Shown here piece after piece: positions 59,963 to 64,000 of a DNA stretch of 64,000 nt (positions are counted from its first letter, which is position 1; each line of letters begins with the position of its first letter). The notes under the pieces were generated by a model. The model was given only the letters and a program-made list of their open reading frames with translations. It made no database searches and had not been told where the DNA came from. Source of the stretch: Agrobacterium tumefaciens. GTDB lineage: Bacteria; Pseudomonadota; Alphaproteobacteria; Rhizobiales; Rhizobiaceae. Both the position numbers and the translations under genes were made by a program. The stretch lies in assembly GCF_013337285.1 (NCBI RefSeq), contig NZ_SUPW01000002.1:372001-436000 (forward strand). Direction: 5' to 3'.

Positions 59963-60439
59963 TCAGCCCCACTGTACGGCGAGGATTTCGTAACCCTTGG
60001 CGCCGCCCGGTGCGTTGACTTCGATGCTGTCACCGACTTCCTTGCCGATGAGGGCGCGGGCAATCGGCGAGGAAATGGAAATGCGGCCAGCCTTCACATC
60101 GGCTTCCTGATCGCCGACGATCTGGTAGGTCTTTTCCTCGTCGCTATCCTCGTCGACCAGCTTGACGGTGGCGCCGAATTTGATCTTGGAGCCGGACATC
60201 TTGGAAAGGTCGATGACTTCCGCGCGCGCGGTCAGGTCTTCGAGTTCAGTGATGCGGCCTTCATTATGGCTCTGGGCTTCCTTGGCAGCGTGGTATTCGG
60301 CATTTTCCGAAAGGTCGCCATGGGCGCGCGCTTCCGCAATTGCCTCGATGATACGGGGACGCTCCTCCTGCTGGCGAACGCGCAGCTCCTCCTGCAGCTT
60401 GACGAATCCACCCTGAGTCATCGGTACTTTTTCTACCAT
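59963..60439 (-). CDS. greA: Transcription elongation factor GreA
   Basis: This 158-residue protein binds the RNA polymerase secondary channel and promotes cleavage of backtracked RNA. It has the N-terminal coiled coil with [28 protein letters not shown], in which the acidic tip carries Asp and Glu (GDLSENAEY), and the C-terminal FKBP-like domain ending [10 protein letters not shown]. It starts after the leader terminator described separately. lpsB follows on the same strand. Confidence 0.96.
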
Positions 60440-60474: not shown

Positions 60475-60516
60475 AGACACAAAAAGAAACAGGTTCCGGA
60501 GAGGAACTCCGGAACC
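60475..60516 (-). terminator. Terminator-like hairpin in the greA leader
   Basis: On the minus strand GGTTCCGGA (60516-60508) pairs with TCCGGAACC (60500-60492), and TGTTTCTTTTTG follows. It lies 36 bases upstream of the greA ATG. A TATAGT element on the minus strand (60540-60545) could start RNA near 60533, giving a terminated RNA of about 50 bases. No upstream minus-strand gene needs this terminator. Confidence 0.6.
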
Positions 60517-60639
60517 ATGCCAAAATCAAAACTGAGCCGACTATATCAGAAGAGGACAGCGAAATGCCAGCAAATTTGAGCCGGTGAAATTTCCGCAATT
60601 ATTCATTGGCTTAGTCGACATGATTGACATTTTTCAATA

Positions 60640-60654
60640 GAACATATAGTGAAC
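60640..60654. promoter_or_regulatory. Putative LexA (SOS) box
   Basis: GAAC-ATATAGT-GAAC is an exact GAAC-N7-GAAC direct repeat, the LexA box of rhizobia and other alphaproteobacteria. It overlaps a promoter-like TTGACA (60624-60629) and TATAGT (60645-60650, 15-base spacer) and ends six bases before ATG 60661. Chance gives about two such 8-base matches in 64 kb, so position and gene function carry the argument. Confidence 0.7.
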
Positions 60655-60660
60655 ATTATT

Positions 60661-61893
60661 ATGAAGAAGTCAATCAGGCAACGGCTTGCCATTCTCTCCG
60701 ACGCGGCGAAATATGACGCGTCCTGCGCCTCCAGCGGCACGACGAAACGCAACTCCGCAGTATCAGGCGGACTGGGTTCAACGGAGGGGTCGGGCATCTG
60801 CCATGCCTATGCGCCGGATGGGCGCTGCATCTCACTCCTGAAAATCCTGCTCACCAATTTCTGCATCTATGATTGCGCCTATTGCATCAACCGCTCTTCC
60901 AGCAATGTCGAGCGGGCGCGGTTTACCGCCGAGGAGGTGGTGTGGCTGACGCTGGAGTTCTATCGGCGCAACTATATCGAGGGGCTGTTTTTGTCCTCCG
61001 GCATTATCCGCTCCTCGGATCATACGATGGAAGAGATGGTGCGCGTGGCGCGGGAACTGCGTGTTACGCATGGCTTTCGCGGTTATATCCATCTGAAATC
61101 GATCCCTGAAGCGTCGCCGAAGCTCATAGAGGAGGCGGGGCTCTACGCGGACCGGCTGTCGATCAATATCGAATTGCCGACCGATAGCGGTATTGGTCGC
61201 TTTGCGCCGGAAAAGCAGCCTGCCAATATTCGCCGCTCCATGGCCGATATCCGTCTGAAGATCGAGGAGGCGGGCGAGCCGACGGTGCGGACGCGCCGGA
61301 CCAAGCGCTTCGCGCCCGCCGGGCAGAGCACGCAGATGATCGTCGGGGCTGACGGCGCTGACGACAGCACCATCCTCTCCACCAGCGCCCGGCTTTATGG
61401 CAGTTATGGTCTGCGGCGCGTCTATTATTCGGCCTTCAGCCCCATTCCGGATTCCTCGAAAAACCTGCCGCTGATCAAGCCGCCCTTGATGCGTGAGCAC
61501 AGGCTTTATCAGGCGGACTGGCTTTACCGTTTTTACGGTTTTGACATCGGCGAAATAACCGCGATCGGCGGCGATGGCATGCTCGATCTCGATATCGACC
61601 CAAAGCTGGCATGGGCGCTCAAAAATCGCGACCGTTTTCCGGTGGATGTGAATGCCGCGGATCGGGAAATGCTGCTGCGCGTGCCCGGTTTCGGCACCAA
61701 GACGGTCGCTTCCATCCTGTCATCACGGCGGTTTCGGCGGGTACGGCTGGAGGATGTTGCCCGTTTTGGGGTGTCCCTGAAAAAGGTGAAGGCCTTTATC
61801 GTCGCGGATGGCTGGACGCCGGGCAAACTGACTGAACGGCCGGATCTGCGGGCGATGTTTGCGCCACAGCCCGAACAGTTGTCGCTGTTGTGA
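60661..61893 (+). CDS. Radical-SAM protein of the UdgX-linked putative DNA repair family
   Basis: This 410-residue protein has a radical-SAM cluster CIYDCAYC with Cys68, Cys72 and Cys75 (Cx3Cx2C), in a TIM-barrel domain, and a C-terminal helix-hairpin-helix (VDVNAADREMLLRVPGFGTKTVASIL) that should bind DNA. The family is annotated as putative DNA modification/repair radical SAM protein, linked to UDG genes. The start ATG 60661 lies six bases after the LexA-type box and has no Shine-Dalgarno, so the mRNA may be leaderless; GTG 60649 lies inside the box. UdgX follows directly. Confidence 0.9.
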   Translation: MKKSIRQRLAILSDAAKYDASCASSGTTKRNSAVSGGLGSTEGSGICHAYAPDGRCISLLKILLTNFCIYDCAYCINRSSSNVERARFTAEEVVWLTLEFYRRNYIEGLFLSSGIIRSSDHTMEEMVRVARELRVTHGFRGYIHLKSIPEASPKLIEEAGLYADRLSINIELPTDSGIGRFAPEKQPANIRRSMADIRLKIEEAGEPTVRTRRTKRFAPAGQSTQMIVGADGADDSTILSTSARLYGSYGLRRVYYSAFSPIPDSSKNLPLIKPPLMREHRLYQADWLYRFYGFDIGEITAIGGDGMLDLDIDPKLAWALKNRDRFPVDVNAADREMLLRVPGFGTKTVASILSSRRFRRVRLEDVARFGVSLKKVKAFIVADGWTPGKLTERPDLRAMFAPQPEQLSLL

Positions 61894-63347
61894 TGTACGG
61901 CCCGGTTCTGGAAGGACGGGGCGATTTTGGCGAGTGGCGTGATGCGGCGCGTTCGGCGCTTGCCGCCGATGTGCCGCCGGAGGCGATTGACTGGCGGCTA
62001 CGGGACGATGAGGCGGGACTGCTGGATTTTGCCGGTGAGCCGTTGCCGACGCCCAAGGCTGGTGAAACGCAGGTTTCCGTTCCGGCCGCCTTCGTGGCAC
62101 TGGCGCAGGCGGTGATCTGCCACAGCGAAAAGGGCCGTTTCGCGCTACTCTACCGGCTGCTGTGGCGGCTTAGGCAGGATCGGGCTCTGCTGCAGTTCAA
62201 GTCCGATCCGGATGTTTCACAAGCGCGATTGCTCGAAAAATCCGTCCGTCGTGACTGTCACAAGATGACAGCCTTCGTTCGTTTCAAGGAGTTACCCTTA
62301 CCGCAGGGGCAGGGCGGGCGACGGCGCTTCGCCGCCTGGTTCGAGCCGGATCATTTCATTGTCGAGCGCGAGGCCCCGTTTTTCCAGCGGAGGTTCACTG
62401 ACATGGACTGGCTGATCGCGACGCCGAAAGGCTTTGCGCGATGGGATGGAAGCGTGCTGCAAACATCGCGGGAGGCCGCCGCCAAACCCGATTTGGCAGA
62501 CGAGACGGACGATCTCTGGCGGACCTATTATGCCAATATATTCAATCCGGCCCGCCTGAAGATCAAGGCGATGACGGCGGAGATGCCGAAAAAATACTGG
62601 AAGAACCTGCCGGAAGCGGATCTCATTCCCGGCCTCATTCTGGGGGCGGAGGCGCGGGTGCTTGATATGGCGGCCAAGGCCGCAACCCAGCCGCAGCCGT
62701 TTCACCACCGCCTGCAAGCCGTTGCCGCCGCGGCACGGGAGGAGGTCCTGTCGCCGGAACCGGAAGATTCGCTTGCCTCTCTGAGGCGGCAGGCAAGCCA
62801 ATGCACGCGGTGCCCGCTGCATTGCAAGGCGACGCAAACTGTTTTTGGCGAGGGGCCGCAGGATGCTGATGTCATGATCGTCGGCGAGCAGCCTGGCGAT
62901 CACGAAGATCTTGCCGGAAAACCTTTCCTCGGCCCTGCTGGTCAGCTCTTTGACCGGACGCTCGGCGAGATCGGCGTGGATCGCAGGCGGCTTTACGTCA
63001 CCAATGCCGTCAAGCATTTCAAATATGAAACACGTGGCAAGCGGCGTATTCACCAGCGGCCGGATGCGGGTGAGGTGCAGCAATGTCGCTGGTGGCTGAA
63101 CCAGGAAATTGCACTGGTGCAGCCGAAGCTCATCGTCGCCATGGGTGCGACGGCGCTTTATGCGCTGACCGGTGGCAAGGAGAAAGTCACCGACGTTCGG
63201 AGCCGCGCTCTTCCCATGCAGGAAGGGCGAACGCTGTTTGTCACGGTGCATCCATCCTATCTGCTGCGCCTGCCGGATGCGCGGGTGAAAGAGGCGGAAA
63301 TTCTGCTCTTCAAAAAGGATATGGAGTTTATAAGATTATTCGAATAG
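61893..63347 (+). CDS. udgX: DUF4130-UdgX fusion (uracil-DNA cross-linking glycosylase)
   Basis: This 484-residue protein joins an N-terminal DUF4130 domain (about 1-245, found next to or fused with this radical-SAM family) to a C-terminal UDG-fold domain (about 285-484). The latter has CTRCPLHCKATQTVFGEGP with Cys residues for an iron-sulfur cluster, GEQPGDHEDLAGKPFLGPAG, and KRRIHQRP with His387, the covalent catalytic His of UdgX. UdgX forms a covalent bond to deoxyribose after uracil removal. The start overlaps the radical-SAM stop (TGATG); GTG 61890 is possible. They are translationally coupled. Confidence 0.92.
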   Translation: MYGPVLEGRGDFGEWRDAARSALAADVPPEAIDWRLRDDEAGLLDFAGEPLPTPKAGETQVSVPAAFVALAQAVICHSEKGRFALLYRLLWRLRQDRALLQFKSDPDVSQARLLEKSVRRDCHKMTAFVRFKELPLPQGQGGRRRFAAWFEPDHFIVEREAPFFQRRFTDMDWLIATPKGFARWDGSVLQTSREAAAKPDLADETDDLWRTYYANIFNPARLKIKAMTAEMPKKYWKNLPEADLIPGLILGAEARVLDMAAKAATQPQPFHHRLQAVAAAAREEVLSPEPEDSLASLRRQASQCTRCPLHCKATQTVFGEGPQDADVMIVGEQPGDHEDLAGKPFLGPAGQLFDRTLGEIGVDRRRLYVTNAVKHFKYETRGKRRIHQRPDAGEVQQCRWWLNQEIALVQPKLIVAMGATALYALTGGKEKVTDVRSRALPMQEGRTLFVTVHPSYLLRLPDARVKEAEILLFKKDMEFIRLFE

Positions 63348-63495
63348 ATTGTTTTATTAATTTATGAAAATATTGTACTATTCTTTTACTTTTATGAATA
63401 TAATTTACTATTTTTTGGTTCGGTATTTTTATTGAAATTTTATACTTATCGATGATAATTGAATCGGTTTTATTTATTTATTGCGTGGACATATC
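63348..63495. other. AT-rich intergenic region
   Basis: This 148-base stretch is far more AT-rich than the surrounding DNA, with long T and A/T runs. It separates udgX from the last gene. It probably holds a promoter, and could be a site for nucleoid proteins or reflect acquired DNA. Confidence 0.6.
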
Positions 63496-64000
63496 ATGTT
63501 GGGTGAACTCGACCTCACGACAGTCATACTGATGCAAAAATGCTCTTATATTGTGGGATTGCTGAGTTTCATCTATCTTAAGTTGTCAAATCGTGGATTG
63601 CGTGGCCCGGTTGCTCTTGCCGCCGGCTTTGCAGCCATGACTATTGGCTCCACACTCGCCGGTTACGGCGAATGGGGGATAATGTCACCGGCTTTATGGC
63701 AGCTCGGCAGTGTCGTTTTCGGCATTATTGGTTATGCGCTGATCTGGCTCGGTCTGAAAGTTTTGAGCGACGGACGCCCTGTGGGCCGGCGGACGGTGGT
63801 CGCCCTCTGTCTTGTCGCGCTGCTGGCGATTGTCGTCGCGCTGCAGGTGGCTGAAAACAATGCGTATCGTGCGGCTCTTTTCAATGGTTGCGCGGCTCTC
63901 GCCTATCTTGCGGGCGCGGGTGGGCTTTTCGCCAGGTGGCGCAAGGAGCGGCTTCTCTCCCGTCTGGCGCTCGGCGCAATCACCGGCATTTCCGGTCTGA
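63496..64000 (+). CDS. Multi-pass membrane protein, N-terminal part (runs past window end)
   Basis: An open frame begins with ATG 63496 (MLGELDLTTVILMQKCSYIV) and runs 168 codons to the window edge without a stop. It has about five hydrophobic helices, among them [37 protein letters not shown] and VVALCLVALLAIVVAL. Such N-terminal membrane modules often precede GGDEF domains in rhizobia, but the C-terminal part is not visible. The ribosome site (GTGGACATATC) is weak. Function is undetermined. Confidence 0.7.
   Translation, partial: MLGELDLTTVILMQKCSYIVGLLSFIYLKLSNRGLRGPVALAAGFAAMTIGSTLAGYGEWGIMSPALWQLGSVVFGIIGYALIWLGLKVLSDGRPVGRRTVVALCLVALLAIVVALQVAENNAYRAALFNGCAALAYLAGAGGLFARWRKERLLSRLALGAITGISGL

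Follow-up and report, generated by a model that had tools for sequence, protein, structure and literature searches.

The window analysed here is a 64,000-nucleotide (nt) stretch of the Agrobacterium tumefaciens genome (NCBI RefSeq assembly GCF_013337285.1, contig NZ_SUPW01000002.1, positions 372,001 to 436,000), and near its right-hand end, on the forward strand, lies a two-gene operon headed by a predicted LexA (SOS) operator. The first gene (60661–61893) starts with ATG and encodes a 410-amino acid (aa) radical S-adenosylmethionine (SAM) protein, which matched TIGR03916 (rSAM_link_UDG) with 565 bits against a cut-off of 343.5. The second gene (61893–63347, forward strand) encodes a 484-aa fusion protein composed of a DUF4130 region (TIGR03915; residues 9–242, 61917–62618; 214.9 bits) and a UdgX domain (TIGR03914; residues 244–480, 62622–63332; 346.5 bits), both over their cut-offs, and the R-loop sequence KRRIH of the UdgX domain (residues 383–387, 63039–63053) ends with His387. 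The genes are joined by a TGATG sequence (61891–61895), in which the stop codon TGA (61891–61893) overlaps the ATG of the second gene (61893–61895); the second ATG lies at the same overlap offset in 24 of 67 loci from the bacterium's own family, the Rhizobiaceae. A preliminary description of this DNA had reported the coupled genes and the fusion with its His387, and both were found as described. It had also proposed a LexA-type box, GAAC-N7-GAAC, six bases before the first ATG. This sequence, GAACATATAGTGAAC, was located at 60640–60654 on the forward strand, and its end is six bases away from the start codon at 60661.

The preliminary description had warned that about two such matches would be expected by chance in 64 kb. 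The calculated expectation was 1.90 and four matches were found, among which the box at 60640–60654 is the only one outside every open reading frame (ORF) of at least 150 aa. Since the pattern was unremarkable within the window, relatives were examined. Genomes over the TIGR03916 cut-off numbered 67 of 151 in the family, 38 of 199 in a draw from the order, 18 of 289 in a draw from the class and 70 of 349 in a draw from the phylum, these sets overlapping, and upstream DNA was taken for all of them except 12 of the 70 in the phylum draw. In a control for the family scan, Caulobacter crescentus also matched TIGR03916. The sub-cut-off loci of the class draw (L113–L124) and L077, which is the own genome again, were dropped before counting. 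A box was scored as an exact GAAC-N7-GAAC or its reverse complement within 110 bp upstream of the radical-SAM gene; the GAAC orientation alone had given false misses, which were recovered by counting both orientations. Among own-family loci, 69 of 70 had the box, compared with 16 of 4474 control windows from the same loci; among the other alphaproteobacterial loci, 67 of 70 had it, compared with 9 of 4396 control windows. Conservation upstream of orthologues had been named beforehand as a test capable of refuting the proposed control, and the box proved to be conserved.

Other lineages carried other operators. None of the 20 loci sampled in other classes of the phylum had the alphaproteobacterial box, but CTGT-N8-ACAG was found in 14 (3 of 1329 control windows); Caballeronia, a named betaproteobacterium, has CTGTATAAACATACAG, which is of this type. 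In 80 further loci, mostly from Bacteroidota with some from Moraxellaceae, CTAA-N5-TTAG was found in 23 and GGA-N5-TCC in 16, compared with base-shuffle expectations of 0.2 and 0.4, respectively. These two sequences are published SOS motifs of Bacteroidetes (PMC8565304). Two minor observations concern single groups. In both L168 and L169, from other classes of the phylum, the sequence immediately preceding the gene contains, by eye, an inverted repeat (GTCTCAT-CCA-ATGAGAC), perhaps another lineage-specific operator, and four Chryseobacterium loci among the 80 (L193–L196) carry GAACTAATTTTGAAC or GAACTAAATTTGAAC, an alpha-like pattern, 66–78 bp upstream of the match.

The own genome encodes a LexA over cut-off, and GAACACATATGGAAC lies upstream of lexA. 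A tighter form of the box pattern gave 9 sites genome-wide, compared with 0 for the reversed control, and one of these sits between two ORFs that we take, from their sequences, to be uvrA-like and ssb-like. The conserved box in family, order and class, the lineage operators elsewhere and the boxed lexA agree with the LexA-type control that had been proposed, and they make it very probable that the operon belongs to the SOS response. We take COG4277 to be the TIGR03916 protein. In kind, such control is not new, because a COG1573–COG4277 operon has already been predicted in print to be under SOS control (PMC8565304, which cites reports from Verrucomicrobia and Caulobacter). What is added here is the near-universality of the box among the Rhizobiaceae loci, a side-by-side view of operator switching, the predicted leaderless geometry and the apparent attachment of control to a core of the operon, described below. 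Two further sites of the own genome were recorded. At L165 (C1:949400–954400), a box, GAACAAAAGATGAAC, is followed after 2 nt by the ATG that opens an ORF of some 100 aa, making it a second leaderless-like SOS candidate. At L157 (C1:432000–437000), overlapping tandem boxes, GAACAAAATGAGAACAAATTTGGAAC, are followed by a Shine-Dalgarno (SD)-like stretch and an ATG, and the ORF further downstream is presumably DnaE-like.

The position of the box relative to promoter-like sequences was compared among the 67 family loci. In the window, a −35-like TTGACA (60624–60629, forward strand) has its first base 37 nt before the ATG, and a −10-like TATAGT (60645–60650, forward strand) lies within the operator. 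The best TTGACA-like hexamer (at least 4 of 6 positions) began 35–37 nt before the ATG in 29 loci, and the best −10-like hexamer stood exactly 6 nt before the ATG in 39, compared with 5.3 in base shuffles, ties having been assigned to 6 nt in the real and shuffled sets alike. Past the box, the first start codon in frame was ATG in all 67. SD-like matches of at least 3 nt were rarer than in shuffles (24 of 67 loci, compared with about 46); those of at least 4 nt occurred in 7 loci, compared with about 10, and there was none before the ATG of the window, in keeping with the missing Shine-Dalgarno sequence of the preliminary description. The distance from the end of the box to the aligned ATG was 2 nt in 28 loci, 3–7 nt in 20, 11 nt in 2 and 13–17 nt in 17. 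When the sequences were anchored at the ATG, the 2-nt and 13–17-nt classes had T(−35), G(−33) and TAT at −12 to −10 in common, while the position of the box differed by about one helical turn. A protein tree built from 65 box-bearing family loci out of 67 (without L066, which is cut short, and L043) required three changes for the far register, two of them forced by well-supported branches. Three loci (L012, L021 and L025) carry two overlapping boxes 11 bp apart with a common GAAC half-site, a possible intermediate for such a shift of register.

This geometry suggests that the mRNA of the operon is probably leaderless or nearly so, as had been proposed, with a predicted transcript start at 60657–60661 (forward strand) and a leader of 0–4 nt. 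Leaderless mRNAs are documented in Sinorhizobium meliloti, in which 171 such starts were mapped, all with AUG (PMC3616915). The AUG at the 5′ end is a likeness to the present case; in the present case, however, the start is predicted from geometry and is coupled to a LexA operator. A leaderless SOS promoter in which the −10 element and the start codon keep their places while the operator moves by one helical turn would constitute a natural experiment on repressor placement.

Gene content was compared with the occurrence of the box. DUF4130 followed the radical-SAM gene in 63 of the 67 family loci, whose flanks were in part truncated, and in all 20 other-class loci; among the 80 mainly Bacteroidota loci it did so in 78 with a threshold of E 1e-3 (76 at 1e-4). 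A fusion of UdgX to DUF4130 was seen in 60 of the 67 family loci, the downstream flank again being truncated in part, and UdgX matched in 8 of 20 other-class loci, whose flanks were limited; there was no UdgX match in any of the 80 mainly Bacteroidota loci, and none of 25 whole genomes from these loci contained UdgX over cut-off, two of them having weak sub-cut-off matches. All 46 aligned DUF4130 proteins (45 from mainly Bacteroidota loci and the window's own segment) matched DUF4130, and no uracil-DNA glycosylase (UDG) family was present among 25 of the 26 families listed for them. Among the 151 family genomes, 65 had both the radical-SAM gene and UdgX, 13 had UdgX alone and 2 had the radical-SAM gene alone, the gene in these last two lying at a contig end or on a short contig. 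The box was absent from all 20 own-family UdgX loci situated away from a radical-SAM gene, of which 17 were stand-alone, two had a full DUF4130 (L292 and L293) and one had a partial DUF4130 (L288). Within the family, the radical-SAM gene and UdgX mostly co-occur, yet the predicted control tracks the radical-SAM gene, because UdgX loci away from that gene have no box. The core of the SOS unit appears to consist of radical SAM plus DUF4130, with UdgX as an add-on, and since the predicted control follows this core and not UdgX, attention moves away from uracil.

Conserved residues were located in both proteins. The radical-SAM motif CX3CX2C (C68, C72 and C75; 60862–60885, forward strand) was present in 156 of 156 aligned rows, L043, L066, L067, L112 and rows shorter than 330 aa having been omitted, and the protein also matched Pfam Radical_SAM. 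Three further cysteines, C22, C47 and C56, together with His48 (60724–60828, forward strand), were invariant in the same 156 rows and in 40 of 40 rows of alignment A2; the three cysteines are predicted to be ligands of an auxiliary Fe–S cluster. The preliminary description had assigned the first protein to the radical-SAM enzymes and had given it a helix-hairpin-helix (HhH). The assignment was borne out by the TIGR03916 match, while the HhH-like C-terminal segment (residues about 327–356; 61639–61728, forward strand) was matched weakly by RuvA (E 0.0009) and ComEA (E 0.008) profiles. In the UdgX domain of the window, the GEQPG, KRRIH and HPS motifs were all found, and the cross-linking His of KRRIH was aligned in 128 of 133 UdgX rows (one of them the own genome again), the remaining 5 being gapped there. 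A profile search of solved structures yielded none clearly of the TIGR03916 or DUF4130 kind, and no relative of DUF4130 was found among them by sequence profile (best E 0.35). Kinship of DUF4130 to RecJ gained no support from sequence profiles (hhalign probability 0.4% against a RecJ alignment), and the invariant DUF4130 columns include no DHH catalytic triad. A phage origin was rejected, the matches being only partial and distant, in 5 phage records (H61–H65; two Acinetobacter phages and three gut phages) that hold partial TIGR03916-like DNA.

As a whole, we consider it likely that the locus is a LexA-repressed SOS operon with a leaderless or nearly leaderless mRNA, encoding a radical-SAM/DUF4130 repair core with a fused UdgX; LexA binding, induction by DNA damage and the transcript start are inferred from the comparisons above. 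LexA bound at 60640–60654 would cover the −10 region beside the transcript start, RecA activated by damage would remove it, and the mRNA would then begin no more than about four bases from the ATG. The product would be a two-part DNA-repair core, made up of DUF4130 and a radical-SAM enzyme whose HhH-like end would contact DNA. This pair would act on damaged DNA without a need for uracil, and the fused UdgX would add a second activity, the covalent capture of uracil-derived abasic sites. A more specific proposal, which we offer tentatively and regard as somewhat more apt to be wrong than right, is that the pair is an unrecognised SOS core tool for a non-uracil lesion, placed under four LexA-type operators across lineages, in which an auxiliary Fe–S radical enzyme works with DUF4130 as a catalytically altered RecJ/Cdc45-like partner and UdgX is optional. 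Lineage-matched SOS control would supply a physiological setting for UdgX and for the radical-SAM/DUF4130 pair.

Several observations weigh against the SOS operon as outlined. The exact box was missing at L067, a divergent, sub-cut-off match, and at L082, L091 and L098, which have partial boxes by eye; L133 matched none of the operator patterns tried, and neither did L268–L270 (two Bacillota and one Gemmatimonadota). An exact box was lacking in 6 of the 20 other-class loci, four of which have CTGT-N8-CCAG and two (L168 and L169) nothing, and 42 of the 80 mainly Bacteroidota loci matched neither published motif. For the radical-SAM protein, AlphaFold2 (AF2) gave a weak model (mean predicted local distance difference test score, 67.7). 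At the window promoter, TATAGT is separated from the ATG by 10 nt instead of 6 nt, and a scan for promoters with 16–18-nt spacers found none at the box, because the spacer between TTGACA and TATAGT is 15 nt; of the overlap with −10/−35 elements claimed in the preliminary description, the hexamers thus stood and a promoter of the scanned spacing did not. The far-register family loci L062 and L063 have SD-like AGGA or GAGGT and look leadered, and several loci outside the family show SD-like leaders by eye. The scan and these leadered relatives would suit a genuine LexA box that acts as a roadblock to transcription from a promoter further upstream, with a normal leader. We find such an arrangement improbable, since the −35/−10/ATG spacing is fixed while the box shifts, and since ATG is universal and SD-like matches are few among the family loci. 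A chance box, for which the four matches in the window against 1.90 expected would speak, was ruled out by its presence in 136 of 140 alphaproteobacterial loci compared with 0.2–0.4% of control windows, and its probability is practically negligible.

With regard to function, the preliminary description had envisaged two-step repair, with UdgX marking or capturing a lesion on which the radical-SAM enzyme then acts; this was considered here as a uracil pathway that requires all three components. Within the family this pairing is favoured by the frequent fusion of UdgX to DUF4130, by the presence of UdgX over cut-off in 65 of the 67 genomes with the radical-SAM gene and by the aligned cross-linking His. 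As a general mechanism with UdgX as a necessary partner, however, it was not supported, given the lack of UdgX matches in the 80 mainly Bacteroidota loci and the boxless state of all 20 UdgX loci away from the radical-SAM gene; together with the 25 whole genomes without UdgX over cut-off, the incomplete occurrence of UdgX in other classes and the 13 family genomes that have UdgX without the radical-SAM gene, this leaves the pathway with little credibility in our estimation. Direct reversal of a lesion by an SplB-like radical-SAM photolyase, akin to spore photoproduct lyase, has been suggested in print for the DUF4130-associated enzyme, and predicted SOS control and an HhH-like end would fit such an activity. 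However, the best matches of the protein among those listed, obtained with the weak model, were of the HydE, viperin, pyruvate formate-lyase (PFL)-activase and BioB types, and the three extra invariant N-terminal cysteines fit an auxiliary cluster, so that we judge direct reversal rather unlikely. Spore photoproduct lyase was not among the matches listed, which is not evidence against SplB kinship. The radical-SAM/DUF4130 repair core with an added UdgX is the reading that we retain.

The operon resembles several described systems in part. The COG1573–COG4277 operon has, by its description in PMC8565304, the same two-gene layout under a LexA-type motif, whereas the present operon has an alphaproteobacterial direct repeat on a predicted leaderless promoter. 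The same source uses the label of a uracil-DNA glycosylase system, in contrast to the lack of a UDG family noted above for the DUF4130 proteins; in Bacteroidetes, this label may come from the COG assignment of fused relatives. The names of the NCBIfam models TIGR03916, TIGR03915 and TIGR03914, all matched over cut-off here, imply a putative repair role and are silent on SOS control and a leaderless start. UdgX of Mycobacterium smegmatis has the GEQPG, KRRIH and HPS motifs in common with the window (as defined in PMC10359453), but the domain here is fused behind DUF4130 and lies under a predicted SOS promoter. The role of UdgX is termed “largely unknown” in PMC10359453, and the terms SOS and operon were not found in that paper or in PMC10776899, also on UdgX. 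In the open PMC literature searched, DUF4130 and COG4277 are barely mentioned, no report of UdgX together with radical SAM was found, and none tying UdgX to LexA or the SOS response was found, although such a report may exist unseen. In Acinetobacter Tol 5, a gene matched by name is reported as up under desiccation (PMC13130816).

The surroundings of the operon offered two minor features. Past its end, 63348–64000 is an AT-rich stretch in which, by eye, an ORF with a membrane-like N-terminus begins at about 63497 and runs off the window. On the other side, the minus strand carries a terminator-like 10-pair stem with a T-rich tail at 60492–60516, about 50 nt upstream of a divergent gene (59963–60439) that is presumably GreA-like; the stem is possibly an attenuator in the greA leader.

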